A stretch of 37,911 nt of DNA from Candidatus Enterenecus stercoripullorum (lineage in GTDB: Bacteria > Bacillota > Clostridia > Oscillospirales > Oscillospiraceae), in contig DVKM01000063.1 of NCBI GenBank assembly GCA_018716015.1, forward strand, positions 1-37,911, in the 5' to 3' direction. A program made the translations under genes and the position numbers. How positions within the stretch are numbered: the stretch's first letter is position 1; each line of letters opens with the position of its first letter. Below the pieces are notes generated by a model. The model had not been told where the DNA came from and did not search any database. It was given only the letters and a program-made list of their open reading frames with translations. Below, piece by piece: positions 5,962-11,310 of this stretch.

Positions 5962-6029
5962 AAAATATAGCAAAATAGAATATGCGCCGGGTGATCTTCC
6001 ATCTTCCCGGAGGCGAAAGGAGGCTGCCA

Positions 6030-7418
6030 TTGCACAATCGGTATGATAAGATTTTCCCGCTCACCCTTCTCCTGTCCGCCGCCCTGGCCCTTCTCGGCCT
6101 GCTGTTGGACGACCCGGGAAACATTCTGCCCGGGCTATACAGGATCATCACGATGCAGGATCTGCTGATCACCGACTATGTGTACATCGCCGGGCCGGGG
6201 GCCGCGCTGATCAACGCCGCCGCCGTCACCATCATCACCGTCTGCCTCATCAAATTTTCCCGCAACCATTTCAATGGGTTTTCCCTGGTGGAAATCGGGC
6301 TGATGGCCGGCTTCTCTCTGTTCGGGAAAAACTTTGTCAACATCTGGCCCATCATTTTCGGAACCTGGCTGTACGCCCGCTATCAAAAAGAGCCCTTTTC
6401 CAAACACGTCACGGTGGCGCTGCTGGCCACTTCCCTGGCTCCGCTGGTCAGCTACATGGGTCTGGGCAGCATCCACAAGAGCATCCCCCTGGGCGTTTTC
6501 TCCGGCATTGTGGTGGGCTTTCTCCTGCCCTCCCTGTCCGCCTATACCTATAAGGTGCAAAACGGCATGAATCTCTACAACATGGGGTTTGCCTGCGGCC
6601 TGCTGGCCATGATGATCGTCCCCATCCTCACCGCCTTCGGGGACACGCCGGACTCCGCCCTCTATTGGGCCCAGGGCTATAACCTCCCCTTCGGACTGGC
6701 CATCGGGGGCCTCTGCCTTGCCTTGATCATGCTGGGGCTCACTGCCACCGGAGTGCCCGCCTGGGCCGTCTGGGCCGGCTACCGCCGGCTGCTGCATACC
6801 ACAGGCCGATCTCCCAGCGACTACCTGCGCATGTTCGGCCCGGGCCCGGTGCTGGTCAATACCGGTGTCAACGGCATCGCCGGCATTCTCTATATCCTGA
6901 TTGTGGGGGGGAGCCTCAACGGCCCCACTCTGGGCGGCATTTTCACCATCATGGGCTTTTCCGCCTTTGGCAAACATCTGTGTAATATTGTCCCTGTGAT
7001 GATTGGCGTCGCCCTGGGCGCCTATGGCATGCATCAGACGCCGGACTACCCCTCCCTCCAGCTGGCAGGGCTGTTCGGCACCACCCTGGCCCCCATTGCC
7101 GGGCACTTTGGATGGCCCTACGGCATCCTGGCCGGCTTTATCCACTCGGCCCTGGTCTTGCAGACAGGCGGGCCTGTGGCAGGGCTGAACCTGTATAACA
7201 ACGGCTTTTCCGGCGGCCTGATCGCCATGGTGTTCTACCCCATCGTCACCGCCATCGGCAAGCATCGCCGCCCCTCCCTCCAAGACGAGGAGTACTATGA
7301 CCTGCTCTCTGAGGACGCCCCCATCAATCCTCCCCTTCAGCCCACCGGCCAGGCGGAGGACAGCCAGCAAGAGAAAGAGCCCAGCGGCGCACAGAACGCC
7401 GCGGCGGACCAGGAGTGA
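6030..7418 (+). CDS. DUF1576 family multi-pass membrane protein
   Basis: A hydrophobic protein of about 462 residues with many membrane segments, recognised as the uncharacterised DUF1576 family of Firmicutes. No transport activity is established. The sequence shows an internal duplication: FSLFGKNFVNIWPI resembles FSAFGKHLCNIVPV, and GMNLYNMGFACGLLAM resembles GLNLYNNGFSGGLIAM, so the protein has two similar halves, as in many transporters. The last 55 residues are polar and disordered-looking (Pro, Gln, Glu, Ala). The TTG at 6030 is chosen because AAAGGAGG lies just upstream; the in-frame ATG at 5982 has no ribosome site. The gene is monocistronic and points against its neighbours, ending at a two-way terminator. 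Confidence 0.85.
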   Translation: MHNRYDKIFPLTLLLSAALALLGLLLDDPGNILPGLYRIITMQDLLITDYVYIAGPGAALINAAAVTIITVCLIKFSRNHFNGFSLVEIGLMAGFSLFGKNFVNIWPIIFGTWLYARYQKEPFSKHVTVALLATSLAPLVSYMGLGSIHKSIPLGVFSGIVVGFLLPSLSAYTYKVQNGMNLYNMGFACGLLAMMIVPILTAFGDTPDSALYWAQGYNLPFGLAIGGLCLALIMLGLTATGVPAWAVWAGYRRLLHTTGRSPSDYLRMFGPGPVLVNTGVNGIAGILYILIVGGSLNGPTLGGIFTIMGFSAFGKHLCNIVPVMIGVALGAYGMHQTPDYPSLQLAGLFGTTLAPIAGHFGWPYGILAGFIHSALVLQTGGPVAGLNLYNNGFSGGLIAMVFYPIVTAIGKHRRPSLQDEEYYDLLSEDAPINPPLQPTGQAEDSQQEKEPSGAQNAAADQE

Positions 7419-7516: not shown

Positions 7517-7849
7517 TCAGAGTTTGCTCTTGGCCTGGTATGCCTCTCCCCAATTCCACATCGCGTCCAGGATGGGCTTCAGGCTTTTCCCCAGCTCCGT
7601 CAGGGTGTATTCCACCCGGGGCGGCACCTCCGGGTACACCGTGCGGGTGAGCAGGCCGCTGGCCTCCATCTCCCGCAGCTGGGCGGTGAGCACCTTTTGG
7701 CTCACGCTCCCAATGGATCTTTTCAGTTCGCCAAACCGCTTTGTCCCCGGCATGAGATCTCTCAGAATCAGCACCTTCCACTTATCGCTGATCAACGTCA
7801 GGGTGGTCTCCACCGGACAGGCTGGAAGCTCTTTTGCAGCAGCCGTCAT
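7517..7849 (-). CDS. HxlR/YodB-family winged-helix transcriptional regulator
   Basis: A 110-residue DNA-binding protein with the HxlR family layout: CPVETTLTLISDKWKVLILRDL, then RFGELKRSI, the recognition helix SQKVLTAQLREMEASGLL, and the wing EVPPRVEYTLTELG. Members are dimeric repressors or activators; several (YodB, HypR) sense quinones, aldehydes or hypochlorite through an N-terminal cysteine. Cys11 here is at that position. The ATG at 7849 is chosen because GGAGGG lies 8 bases upstream; longer in-frame starts lack the family pattern. It is divergent from the SnoaL-like gene, and the shared 296-bp region has several repeats, so autoregulation and control of the neighbour are likely. The ligand cannot be read from sequence. 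Confidence 0.9.
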   Translation of the reverse strand: MTAAAKELPACPVETTLTLISDKWKVLILRDLMPGTKRFGELKRSIGSVSQKVLTAQLREMEASGLLTRTVYPEVPPRVEYTLTELGKSLKPILDAMWNWGEAYQAKSKL

Positions 7850-8003: not shown

Positions 8004-8058
8004 CCTCCTGGTAACCGGGTAATTGTTACCTCCTGGTACCCAGGGCACAATATTGTGC
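8004..8058. promoter_or_regulatory. Operator-like repeats in the divergent hxlR/SnoaL region
   Basis: Three overlapping signals are seen. CCTCCTGGTA occurs twice (8004-8013 and 8029-8038, 25 bp apart). GGTAAC and GTTACC form an inverted repeat with 9 bases between (8010-8030). GCACAATATTGTGC is a perfect 14-bp palindrome (8045-8058) that ends 4 bases before the -35 hexamer of the SnoaL-like gene. These are candidate sites for the adjacent HxlR-type regulator; the assignment is inference. Confidence 0.55.
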
Positions 8059-8145: not shown

Positions 8146-8919
8146 ATGACAAACCTTGAGAAAGCCATTGCCCTGATCAACACCTTCGCCTCCGGCGATA
8201 CCGAAACGGCGGCCAGTCTGCTGGCCGAGGGGTACATCCAGCACAATCTCGCCTACGGCACCGGCCGGGACGCCTTTGTGGGCTCCGTGGCCTACCTGGC
8301 CTCCGCCCCGGTGAAAACCACTGTCCACAATATCCGGGCCTTTGAGGACGGGGACAAGGTCTTCCTGCACACGGTCTATAACTTTGCCGGGTCCGGCGAG
8401 CAGGTGGCCTTTGACATTTTCCGCTTTGGCCGGGACGGCAAAATCGCCGAGCACTGGGATAACCTGGCGGACAAGGCGGACCCTAACCCCTCCGGCCGGA
8501 CCCAGGTCGACGGAGCCACGGAGCCCACCGACCTGGGCAAGACCGAGGAGAACCGGGAGCTGGTGAAACACTTCCTGTATGACGTGATGCAGGGCCATAA
8601 CCCGGACAAGACCACCGGGTATTTTGAGGGGGACGCCTACCTTCAGCACAATACCGGCATCGCCGATGGGCTGTCCGGACTGGGCTCCGCGCTGGCAGCG
8701 CTGGCCCAGCAGGGCATACAGATGATTTACACCACTACCCATCAGGTGCTGGCCCAGGGCGATTTTGTGCTGGCGGTGAGCGAGGGCACCTTCGGCGGCG
8801 CGCCCACCAGCTACTATGATCTATGGCGGGTGGAGAACGGCAAAATCGCCGAGCACTGGGATGTGATGGAGACCATTGCCGAGCCCTCCACCTGGCAGAA
8901 CAGCAACGGAAAGTTCTGA
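8146..8919 (+). CDS. Tandem SnoaL-like (NTF2-fold) domain protein
   Basis: A 257-residue cytosolic protein of the 'predicted SnoaL-like aldol condensation-catalyzing enzyme' type. It contains two copies of the NTF2-like fold: residues about 1-115 and 130-257. YIQHNLAYGTG aligns with YLQHNTGIADG, and DGKIAEHWDNL with NGKIAEHWDVM. Single-domain relatives are about 125-140 residues, so this is a head-to-tail duplication. The conserved His and Asp near the pocket are present in both halves, but the substrate cannot be read. The ATG at 8146 has AGGAGG at the right distance. It is divergent from the HxlR-type regulator, a common arrangement for a regulator and its target. The macrodomain remnant starts about 17 bases after the stop codon. 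Confidence 0.85.
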   Translation: MTNLEKAIALINTFASGDTETAASLLAEGYIQHNLAYGTGRDAFVGSVAYLASAPVKTTVHNIRAFEDGDKVFLHTVYNFAGSGEQVAFDIFRFGRDGKIAEHWDNLADKADPNPSGRTQVDGATEPTDLGKTEENRELVKHFLYDVMQGHNPDKTTGYFEGDAYLQHNTGIADGLSGLGSALAALAQQGIQMIYTTTHQVLAQGDFVLAVSEGTFGGAPTSYYDLWRVENGKIAEHWDVMETIAEPSTWQNSNGKF

Positions 8920-8936
8920 CATTCAGGCCTGTCCGG

Positions 8937-9090
8937 GCCCTGCCCGTTACCGTCAGGGAACCCCGCATTTCCCTCTGGCAGGGCGACATCACCCGGCTGA
9001 AGGCGGACGACATCGTCAATGCCGCCAATTCCGCCCTGCTGGGCTGCTGTCCCCTGCCACGGCTGCATCGGCAACCCGATCCTGAGCTGA
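8937..9090 (+). pseudogene. Remnant of a zinc-macrodomain gene (frameshifted)
   Basis: The translation PRISLWQGDITRLKADDIVNAANSALLGC (split here: PRISLWQGDI / IVNAANSALLGC) closely matches residues 83-111 of the intact macrodomain gene downstream. At 9051 the frame breaks: the zinc-site pattern continues as PCHGCIGNPI in the next frame (9052-9081) and then hits a TGA. Comparing with GCFHPLHSCIDN in the intact copy, one codon is reduced to a single base, which means a 2-base deletion. The N-terminal 75 residues and everything after the zinc site are gone. It is not a simple copy of the downstream gene, since the DNA has diverged and is more GC-rich. Confidence 0.75.
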
Positions 9091-9155
9091 ATCACACCCC
9101 ATTTTATAACATCGCACAGGGCAAGTGCCTCTTTGTCGCTCCGGGGTTTGGGGGG

Positions 9156-9299
9156 CGCATCAAGGAGATCCGCGCTCCGCTGGGGCTTTCCCAACAGAAA
9201 TATGCCGATCTGCTGGGTGTTGGACGATGCGTGGTCAGCGTCTGGGAAATCGAGCAGCACAGGCCGTCCAGAAAAAACTATTTAAAAATTATGGAGAGC
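9156..9299 (+). pseudogene. Remnant of an XRE-type helix-turn-helix gene
   Basis: The frame reads RIKEIRAPLGLSQQKYADLLGV, then CVVSVWEIEQHRPSR and KNYLKIME, the pattern of an XRE/Cro helix-turn-helix domain with its second and third helices. There is no start codon or ribosome site of its own; it is open in frame with the first part of the macrodomain remnant. It appears to be the C-terminal part of a small regulator left between the two macrodomain copies. It is not expected to be functional. Confidence 0.55.
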
Positions 9300-9328
9300 A
9301 GAGCTTCCATAGGAAGGAGCCCACGGCA

Positions 9329-11020
9329 ATGACACATGAGGAACAACGGATCTATTTGATCCAGGAGCTGCTGGCGGAGGATGCCAGGTATCACAATATT
9401 TCCATCCCGTCCGATGAGCAGGGGCAAAAAGACTTGCTGCGCAGCTTGATGAATGTCCGCATGCCAAAGCCGATCAGCAGCAACTTTCTTGCAATACAGG
9501 ATGCGTACCTGCAAGAGGAGCGGGATATCCGGGGCGTCACAGATAGTGAGATGCTACCGTCCATTCCTGGGGACCCACGGATTGTATTGTGGCAGGGGGA
9601 CATCACCACCTTAAAAGTAGATACTATCGTCAATGCCGCAAACAGTGCTATGCTGGGCTGCTTCCACCCCCTCCACTCCTGCATCGACAACATCATCGGC
9701 ACGATGAGCGGCACCCAATTGCGGCTCTATTGCTACGATATCATGCGCAAGCAGGGGCACGAGGAGCCCACAGGGCAGGCAAAGATTACACCGGCGTTCA
9801 ATCTGCCCAGCAAGTATATCCTGCACACCGTGGGGCCGATCATCCGCGGCGCTGTCCGAAGGCAGGATTGCGACGCCCTCGCCTCCTGCTATCGCGCCTG
9901 CCTGGAACTGGCCGTGGAGAGCTGCTGCAAGAGCATTGCCTTCTGCTGCATTTCCACCGGGGCGTTTCGGTTCCCTCATGAAAAGGCTGCGAAAATTGCA
10001 GTCCAAACGGTGACGGACTTCCTGAATACCCAGAAACCGGACATTCGGATAATTTTCAATGTGTTTAAGGATGCAGATCTTTTGATTTATCAGAAACTCC
10101 TGGGGGGCATCAAAATGTTGAACACAGTAACGGGAGCCACGCAGAAGCAGGCCGAGTTCCAGGAGGAACTGCGGCAGGCCGTTGAGGAGGCGTCCGCCGT
10201 CCTCATCGGCGCCGGGGCAGGCCTGTCCACCGCCGCCGGCTTCACCTACGGCGGGGAGCGCTTCCGCCGCTACTTTGCCGACTTTGAGCGGAAATACGGC
10301 TTTCACGACATGTATTCCGGGGGCTTCTACCCCTTTGACACCCTGGAGGAGTTTTGGGCTTACTGGAGCCGGCAGATCTTCCTCAACCGGTACACCCCCG
10401 CCCCCAAACCGGTGTACCAGAACCTACTGGAGCTGATACGGAACAAGGACTATTTCGTGCTCACCACCAACGTGGACCACCAGTTCCAGAAGGCGGGCTT
10501 TGACAAACACCGGCTGTTCTACACCCAGGGGGACTACGGTCTATGGCAGTGCTCCCGGCCCTGCCACGACGCCACCTACGACAACGAGGACGTGGTTCGC
10601 CAAATGGTGGAGGCCCAGGGATACCGTATCATCGAGGGCGATCTGGAGCTGTCTGACGGCGCTGTCCCCAAGATGGTGGTTCCCACCCAGCTGGTCCCCC
10701 GCTGCCCTAAGTGCGGCCGGCCCATGACCACTAACCTGCGGGTGGACAACACCTTTGTTCAGGACGACGGCTGGTACGCCGCCGCCCGGCGATATGATCA
10801 GTTTATCCGCCGCCACCGGAAGGGGCCTGTCCTCTACCTGGAGCTGGGGGTGGGGATGAACACCCCAGGCATCGTCAAGTTCCCCTTCTGGCAGATGACT
10901 GCCCGGAATCCCCAGGCCAAGTATGTCTGTGTCAATCAGGGGCAGTCCCATGCGCCCAGGGAGATTGCTGACCGCAGCCTTTGCCTGGATGTGGATCTTG
11001 CGCAGATGCTGGCGAAGTAA
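9329..11020 (+). CDS. Zinc-macrodomain / class M sirtuin (SirTM) fusion protein
   Basis: A 563-residue predicted cytosolic enzyme. Residues about 75-258 are a zinc-containing macrodomain: VLWQGDI, IVNAANSAMLGC, and Cys111, His116 and Cys118 in CFHPLHSCIDN, followed by FNLPSKYILHTVGP. Such proteins remove ADP-ribose from proteins. Residues about 265-563 are a SirTM sirtuin: GAGAGLSTAAG (294-304), YGGERF, TTNVDHQ (379-385), Gln400 in YTQGDYG where canonical sirtuins have the catalytic His, and zinc cysteines 408, 412, 459 and 462. Class M sirtuins act as protein ADP-ribosyltransferases. The ATG at 9329 follows AAGGAG. In Staphylococcus and Streptococcus the two are separate genes beside gcvH-L and lplA2; here they are fused and those partners are absent. 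A Met at 263 with GGGGGG before it may be a relic start of the sirtuin gene. Substrate unknown. Confidence 0.9.
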   Translation: MTHEEQRIYLIQELLAEDARYHNISIPSDEQGQKDLLRSLMNVRMPKPISSNFLAIQDAYLQEERDIRGVTDSEMLPSIPGDPRIVLWQGDITTLKVDTIVNAANSAMLGCFHPLHSCIDNIIGTMSGTQLRLYCYDIMRKQGHEEPTGQAKITPAFNLPSKYILHTVGPIIRGAVRRQDCDALASCYRACLELAVESCCKSIAFCCISTGAFRFPHEKAAKIAVQTVTDFLNTQKPDIRIIFNVFKDADLLIYQKLLGGIKMLNTVTGATQKQAEFQEELRQAVEEASAVLIGAGAGLSTAAGFTYGGERFRRYFADFERKYGFHDMYSGGFYPFDTLEEFWAYWSRQIFLNRYTPAPKPVYQNLLELIRNKDYFVLTTNVDHQFQKAGFDKHRLFYTQGDYGLWQCSRPCHDATYDNEDVVRQMVEAQGYRIIEGDLELSDGAVPKMVVPTQLVPRCPKCGRPMTTNLRVDNTFVQDDGWYAAARRYDQFIRRHRKGPVLYLELGVGMNTPGIVKFPFWQMTARNPQAKYVCVNQGQSHAPREIADRSLCLDVDLAQMLAK

Positions 11021-11265: not shown

Positions 11266-11300
11266 AAAAACAGCCCTATCCGCGCACGGATAGGGCTGTT
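11266..11300 (-). terminator. Terminator of ftsZ
   Basis: A perfect 14-bp stem (11269-11282 with 11287-11300) with a 4-base loop lies 10 bases after the ftsZ stop codon, followed on the minus strand by TTTTT. This is a clear intrinsic terminator. Confidence 0.9.
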
Positions 11301-11310
11301 TCAGCTTTTG

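Follow-up and report, generated by a model that had tools for sequence, protein, structure and literature searches.

Can a single bacterial protein act as both writer and eraser of ADP-ribosylation? The question is raised by one frame in the stretch of 37,911 nucleotides analyzed here (the window), in which a zinc-dependent macrodomain (Zn-Macro) precedes a class M sirtuin (SirTM). Macrodomain-SirTM fusions have been described in fungi (Mfs1), as have pairs lacking the lipoylated GcvH-like protein GcvH-L in bacteria and archaea (portions of PMC4518038 and PMC11490716). The initial annotation saw here a self-contained switch with a different target or a partner in trans. Our comparisons favor another answer: we consider it probable, at about 0.7, that the frame represents a SirTM/Zn-Macro pair of the 'minimal operon' kind, independent of GcvH and standing behind a divergent HxlR-type and probably redox-responsive regulator. 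Pairs of this kind are known; what is unusual is the state of this one, in one frame and with Gly124 in its eraser, and it stands in an HxlR-linked operon. Features are listed in Table 1; G and L numbers designate genomes and loci, G000 being the draft genome of the window and G003 a congener.

Table 1. Features of the macrodomain-SirTM locus, in window coordinates
Feature	Position	Strand	Remarks
HxlR-type regulator, divergent from the operon	7517..7849	-	Pfam PF01638, 3.7e-35; CPVE cysteine
Perfect 14-bp palindrome GCACAATATTGTGC between HxlR and SnoaL genes	8045..8058		Candidate operator
Two-SnoaL-domain protein	8146..8919	+	First gene past the divergent promoter region; Pfam SnoaL_2, two stretches
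Remnant of an older GC-rich Zn-macrodomain gene	8920..9095	+	Ends at about the Zn loop; GC 65%
Remnant of an XRE regulator gene	9096..9316	+	Internal deletion; HTH_3 1.2e-05; GC 54%
Zn-macrodomain half, residues 1-262	9329..10114	+	GC 54% (window 62.9%)
Zn loop Cx4HxC, C111/H116/C118	9659..9682	+	Kept in 115/115 macrodomains, window included
Dyad site D120-x3-G124, Gly for the His of Dx3H	9686..9700	+	Gly in 3/115 and His in 112/115 macrodomains
G6 run joining both frames	10102..10107	+	G5 in 11/11 relatives with the same junction
Retained SirTM start ATG (10115-10117) overlapped by TGA (10119-10121)	10115..10121	+	TGA lies in the macrodomain's five-G frame
SirTM half, residues 263-563	10115..11020	+	N381, D383, Q400, R471
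Hairpin of 15 pairs with T tail	11268..11301		Predicted; likely terminator between the operon and convergent ftsZ

Two ADP-ribosylation domains in one open frame

The frame at 9329-11020 on the forward strand begins with ATG and runs for 563 amino acids without an internal stop, which confirms that both domains lie in a single frame. Its first half matches the Pfam macro domain (PF01661, 1.6e-35) and the NCBIfam model NF003163 for protein-ADP-ribose hydrolases (344 bits against a cut-off of 272). MorMacro, the Zn-Macro of Methanobrevibacter oralis (8rsi), aligns with residues 1-260 (E 3.8e-76), and by this alignment the half would comprise the N-terminal extension of Zn-Macros, a three-helix bundle, and a MacroD-type macrodomain. 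The Cx4HxC loop that replaces the Gly-rich catalytic loop in Zn-Macros is present as C111-x4-H116-x-C118.

The second half is matched by the SirTM of Streptococcus pyogenes (5a3a, 9.7e-71), and a Pfam scan of the 563-aa protein gave no sirtuin match there. The active site of SpySirTM consists of Asn118, Asp120, Gln137 and Arg192 (part of PMC4518038); in the 5a3a alignment all four have equivalents (Table 1), including the Gln in place of His. This position is a Gln in 126 of 126 SirTMs, the window included, and a Zn-ribbon is formed by four cysteines (408, 412, 459 and 462). The zinc pattern and Gln400 are thus where they had been annotated, and the SirTM is linked to a macrodomain of the Zn-Macro subclass.

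Both halves look as though they evolve under constraint when compared with L051, which has the nearest macrodomain: dN is 0.131 and dS 2.36 in the macrodomain, against 0.206 and 1.91 in the SirTM, values of dS near saturation, so that dN/dS ratios are rough.

A single G joins the two frames

The joint lies in a run of Gs immediately upstream of the SirTM start. Eleven relatives share this junction: the coupled pairs L051-L055, L059, L061, L066, L068 and L078, and L010, where the SirTM downstream survives only as an internally deleted remnant. In all eleven we read five Gs, seven bases and the SirTM ATG; the macrodomain stop overlaps this ATG in 10 of the 11 and lies just before it in L061. The window has six Gs, and neither the seven-base spacing nor the ATG after them differs. 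L010, from the congener G003, closely resembles the window in DNA immediately 5' of the joint and has five Gs. L012, of the same phase and also with five Gs, was excluded from this count, its SirTM lying about 270 bases further along, and L209, which is the same contig as L061, was not counted again. The extra G carries the macrodomain frame into the SirTM. The spacing common to the 11 relatives makes the G run the likely ribosome site of the SirTM. Since the two-gene ATG and TGA have been retained, the extra G is either young or not real.

The examined loci hold 115 distinct macrodomain genes, window included: 98 are followed by a SirTM, 15 come after one and 2 are alone in the sequence covered. 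Only the window has a macrodomain-then-SirTM pair in one frame (1/98; 0/97 of the others). Whole-genome searches point the same way. Matches occur in 61 of 99 relatives (E<=0.001), in 91 of 394 genomes of the order (E<=1e-60, among the matches listed) and in 20 of 398 genomes of the phylum (E<=1e-70), samples that overlap, and among them G000 alone reads through both halves without a stop. Matches of the order search were sorted by E-value, so that a full-length frame would rank first; in G082, G151 and G343 matches span both halves across a stop. The count concerns the genomes examined, and the supplementary lists of PMC4518038 and PMC11490716, outside its scope, may hold another one-frame bacterial pair. 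On plasmids, 50 records match the protein, 7 of them with at least 80% of the query covered, and among the best 15 of the 50 the matches that cover both halves and have named features (H1, H3, H4, H6 and H8) show two features each and hence no fusion, whereas H2, H5 and H7 list no feature. A missing SirTM start codon in overlapping pairs, which would point to programmed frameshifting, was considered and rejected, as none of the 98 pairs lacks a start codon and an ATG precedes the core in all 75 pairs with the commonest phase.

Is the sixth G real? The gene may truly have five Gs and specify two separate proteins as in the relatives, the extra base being an error of sequencing or assembly: it sits in a homopolymer, in a draft assembly of 114 contigs, beside an ATG that still overlaps a TGA as in a two-gene arrangement, and no other like-ordered pair is joined. 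However, a run of six is short for a consensus error, and G000 shows no obvious indel problem. Comparing 284,264 bases of G000 with 816,001 bases of G003 (about 45,900 aligned residues against G003 proteins, shadow ORFs included), we obtained 3 frameshift candidates in G000 and 5 in G003; the three in G000 were judged by eye to be shadow-frame or intergenic, none lying in a real gene, which does not in itself decide the site at 10102-10107. An error is thus possible, if on the whole unlikely, and we lean, roughly two to one, toward a real mutation in the sampled DNA.

Even a real base need not mean a fusion selected as a self-contained ADP-ribosylation switch in the manner of Mfs1. The domain order is indeed that of the fungal protein, Foc1Mfs1 (8rsn) aligns with residues 35-557 of the 563-aa protein, the frame is open, and both halves look constrained. 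Yet the single polypeptide that defines Mfs1 exists here as one frame in an assembly, with six Gs where 11 of 11 relatives have five; the two-gene start and stop are retained, no other genome searched shares the joined frame, and the eraser is without the histidine of its dyad (see below). An evolved fusion therefore seems improbable to us, and the self-contained switch first proposed is not supported on this evidence.

The eraser half has an altered dyad

Zn-Macros share a conserved Dx3H motif, and in MorMacro Asp116 and His120 coordinate the 2''-OH of the ribose (part of PMC11490716). In the window Asp120 and the Zn ligands are intact, and Gly124 aligns with His120 of MorMacro, so that the Asp of the Asp/His dyad is present and its His is not. 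Among 115 macrodomains this form is confined to the window, L051 and L010, with the codon GGC in all three. 'Zn-Macro-like domain with altered dyad' is consequently the label that we prefer. With the His replaced, eraser activity is in doubt, and to speak of a reversible switch in one protein is not safe for the window sequence. What stands of the writer-and-eraser proposal is the presence of both domains; the eraser lacks its dyad His and the joint is one G from the two-gene state. Judged by dN and dS against L051, the Gly form seems not to be a dead gene, and it may be a slow eraser or an ADP-ribose reader.

Gene remnants and a probable mosaic history upstream of the pair

Between the SnoaL gene and the pair lie two gene remnants. 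The first is from an older macrodomain gene (translated match at 8904-9050, 55% to residues 64-112); G018 and G023 have a similar truncated macrodomain, apparently with the same break as judged by eye. In the second, positions 9132-9293 are 59% identical over 54 aa to an XRE regulator gene that is 159 aa long and open in G018 and G023. An XRE gene is found at the break of the older macrodomain gene in the window (8920-9316), in L028 (10272-10748) and in L029, which suggests exchange of an XRE-macrodomain segment.

GC content is 54% in the macrodomain and in the XRE remnant, 62% in the SirTM and 65% in the older macrodomain remnant, the window averaging 62.9%. G041 shows synteny with the window (HxlR, SnoaL, DUF1576, FtsZ); its pair consists of two ordinary genes, with 54% identity to the window in the macrodomain and 69% in the SirTM. 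The nearest macrodomain, at 79%, is that of L051, from a Lachnospiraceae draft genome; the two are sisters in a quick tree (support 90, not starred), and the SirTM quick tree has no starred set containing the window. Our reading is that an incoming segment may have replaced the macrodomain part.

In G003 (L010, C2:231345-233330) we observed a SirTM, a hybrid macrodomain and an internally deleted SirTM remnant, in this order. The hybrid is 95% identical to the window over residues 125-190 and 41% over residues 1-60; tandem copies seem to have recombined in this genome.

An IMG/VR contig classed as viral (L199) carries part of a macrodomain-SirTM pair. It was the single weak lead (one of four pattern matches in viral_contigs encodes a relative) for a phage origin of the pair, which we did not retain.

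An HxlR-type regulator stands upstream of many pairs

The divergent regulator of the window is taken to start with the ATG at 7849 (the ORF as listed reaches 8050 from a TTG); the nearest NCBIfam models are the redox regulators RrpB/RrpA, which it matches below their cut-offs. Its homologues are present in 48 of 94 pair loci; of the 46 hits that could be placed relative to the macrodomain gene, 44 lie upstream and divergent and 2 downstream, counts that are upper limits of independent cases because some contigs were fetched twice (for example L030 and L057). None was found in 1.05 Mb of control DNA from G000 and G003, which represent one genus. Where a macrodomain could be placed (86 loci, the window among them), an HxlR gene is upstream in 45 and absent from that side in 41, of which 34 have at least 5 kb of upstream DNA and 7 less. 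The HxlR-type gene noted as a neighbor in the initial annotation is thus no incidental one; genes of this type frequently stand divergent beside such operons.

The cysteine of the CPVE motif is conserved in 48 of 48 HxlR hits at E<=1e-15, the window included. In YodB-type regulators such a cysteine is the sensor. Family resemblance and this conserved residue indicate that the regulator is probably redox-responsive.

Between the regulator and the pair, 104 mechanical ORFs from 45 loci were clustered, and families were assigned through one representative each. Of these loci, 23 have a PNPOx-like/ferredoxin protein, 13 a small PNPOx protein, 9 an ACGX-type radical SAM enzyme, 8 a nitroreductase, 6 a 263-aa protein without family, 5 an NAD(P)-binding protein, 5 a DUF1848 protein and 3 a SnoaL protein, two of the last being the same contig. 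By their representatives, the largest clusters are flavin, Fe-S, radical SAM and nitroreductase proteins, and this fits the link of SirTM systems to oxidative stress and oxidoreductases (parts of PMC4518038 and PMC11490716).

The window itself has, as annotated, a protein with two SnoaL-like domains, with a syntenic copy in G041 (L030/L057). Downstream of the pair, the hairpin in Table 1 is one of four terminator-like sites (shuffled sequences gave a mean of 3.5), and its 15 pairs compare with 5 or 6 in each of the remaining three. On the far side of the regulator is a DUF1576 protein (5982-7418), which in G041 too lies near the pair. Open PMC returned no paper on HxlR together with SirTM, and we did not find the HxlR-linked operon setting described in the literature searched.

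A macrodomain and an ADP-ribosyl writer side by side also recall DarTG, in which an ADP-ribosylating toxin is paired with a macrodomain antidote. Read in this way, the locus would be a toxin-antitoxin or anti-phage unit in which SirTM is the toxin and the macrodomain the antidote, together with an XRE regulator, which adjoins in G018 and G023 and is a remnant in the window; the signs of exchange between genomes would agree. The frequent regulator, however, is HxlR, the partners resemble oxidoreductases, and the 563-aa protein has no PADLOC match. Moreover, five loci (L070, L094, L111, L113 and L121, with 6 kb on both sides) have a SirTM and no macrodomain hit, so that SirTM is tolerated without a neighboring antidote. 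We regard a toxin-antitoxin role as very improbable.

GcvH-L is an unlikely target

Extended SirTM operons have GcvH-L and the lipoate ligase LplA2 in the operon or the genome. The initial annotation noted that both are missing from the neighborhood, and the genome-wide search that it called for extends this to the whole draft: neither G000 (87% complete) nor the congener G003 (99% complete) has a match to GCV_H or LplA-B_cat. Above cut-off, GCV_H is found in 4 and LplA-B_cat in 8 of 45 genomes, and in 3 and 2, respectively, of 28 genomes of the same genus. Fifteen own-genus genomes, G000 among them, have the pair or one half of it (E<=1e-60), and 13 of these are without a match to either family. 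As neither the draft genome nor most congeners searched have a match, GcvH-L is an unlikely target, with the reservation that absences from a genome only 87% complete are not proof. The missing GcvH-L agrees with published assays in which the Zn-Macros of the minimal operon and of fusions failed to demodify SpyGcvH-L but did demodify PARP1 E988Q (PMC11490716).

The pair might still modify a lipoylated GcvH-like protein encoded elsewhere in the genome, given that GcvH-L is the sole known SirTM target (PMC11490716) and that G000 is incomplete, but the lack of both families in the nearly complete G003, as in G000, and their location in G012 and G026 on contigs other than those of the macrodomain/SirTM matches make this the least credible of the alternatives. 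Of the two options originally offered, a different target or a partner in trans, we thus retain the first, as a target that would not be GcvH-L.

An ACGX peptide module accompanies related pairs

The ACGX radical SAM maturase (TIGR04340) was detected in 25 of 394 genomes of the order (E<=1e-80), 24 of them over the cut-off. Twenty-one of the 25 also match either half of the protein (E<=1e-60; 91 of 394 genomes, among the matches listed), where 5.8 would be expected (Fisher p 3.5e-11, uncorrected for kinship). By the matches listed, the maturase lies at most 3 kb upstream of a macrodomain or SirTM match and on the same strand in 13 of these 21 genomes (two of the 13, G135 and G429, have their best SirTM match on a different contig), adjoins the pair on the opposite strand in G337, and is on another contig in 7.

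Of the window and the 94 pair loci taken together, 17 have the maturase, 14 of them with a placed macrodomain as well. The macrodomain follows 1.2-2.2 kb downstream on the same strand in 13 of the 14 and at 7.6 kb in L062, and a frame of repeated ACG motifs precedes the maturase in all 14. A Cys-rich ACGX-repeat peptide and its radical SAM maturase (TIGR04340/TIGR04341) thus sit upstream of SirTM/Zn-Macro genes in L062, L073, L079, L086, L098, L102, L106, L110, L112, L114, L116, L117, L118 and L122, and, since L102 is from Treponema, the module crosses phyla. In the literature searched we found no paper on the maturase with a SirTM/macrodomain pair. G000 has no TIGR04340 match, and the ACGX partner was not found in this draft genome.

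Zn-Macros are described as the only known hydrolases of S-linked ADP-ribose (PMC11490716). Together with a known target that is a lipoyl (dithiol) carrier, this suggests the ACGX peptide as a candidate SirTM target. We may speculate, with considerable doubt, that GcvH-L-free pairs act on non-lipoyl thiol carriers: in many gut Clostridia and a Treponema, SirTM would ADP-ribosylate an ACGX-repeat peptide matured by the upstream radical SAM enzyme of the same operon, and the Zn-macrodomain would free it again. The window pair would then be a partnerless derivative with a weakened eraser, made one polypeptide by slippage.

A GcvH-independent pair and its known relatives

For the GcvH-independent pair behind an HxlR-type regulator, the following course may be envisaged. 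A macrodomain segment would have been acquired. Stress would relieve HxlR repression, and SirTM would then use NAD to place single ADP-ribose units on a target protein other than lipoylated GcvH-L. The Zn-macrodomain would bind the ADP-ribose of the target and remove it slowly or poorly, its dyad His being replaced by Gly. If the extra G is present in the living cell, the locus would yield the fused protein and, from the retained start and its G-rich ribosome site, free SirTM.

The closest known system is the minimal operon represented by MorMacro, which like the window has both domains, all Zn ligands and SirTM catalytic residues, and no GcvH-L or LplA found. The window differs in being one frame by an extra G and in having Gly for the dyad His; it also has a divergent HxlR gene upstream, the comparison with MorMacro being one of proteins. 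Mfs1 (Foc1Mfs1) shares the domain order, and its single polypeptide would be matched if the joined frame is real, whereas a single base separates the fusion of the window from the two-gene state, and it is seen in one bacterial draft genome only. The extended operon of Staphylococcus and Streptococcus (GcvH-L, LplA2, OYE, LLM) shows the same association of SirTM, Zn-Macro and oxidoreductases as here. In the window, in contrast, no GcvH-L or LplA2 is found, and its relatives have PNPOx/ferredoxin, nitroreductase, NAD(P)-binding or ACGX-peptide genes as partners.

The fused frame is a warning that a bacterial 'fusion' can hang on one homopolymer base, and it illustrates the ease of passing from a coupled pair to one polypeptide. 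The Gly124 form offers a natural test of the role of the dyad His in zinc macrodomains. Finally, the operon context, with HxlR, flavin and Fe-S proteins and, in many genomes, an ACGX peptide and its maturase, provides a short list of candidate targets and points to a possible inducing signal for these pairs.
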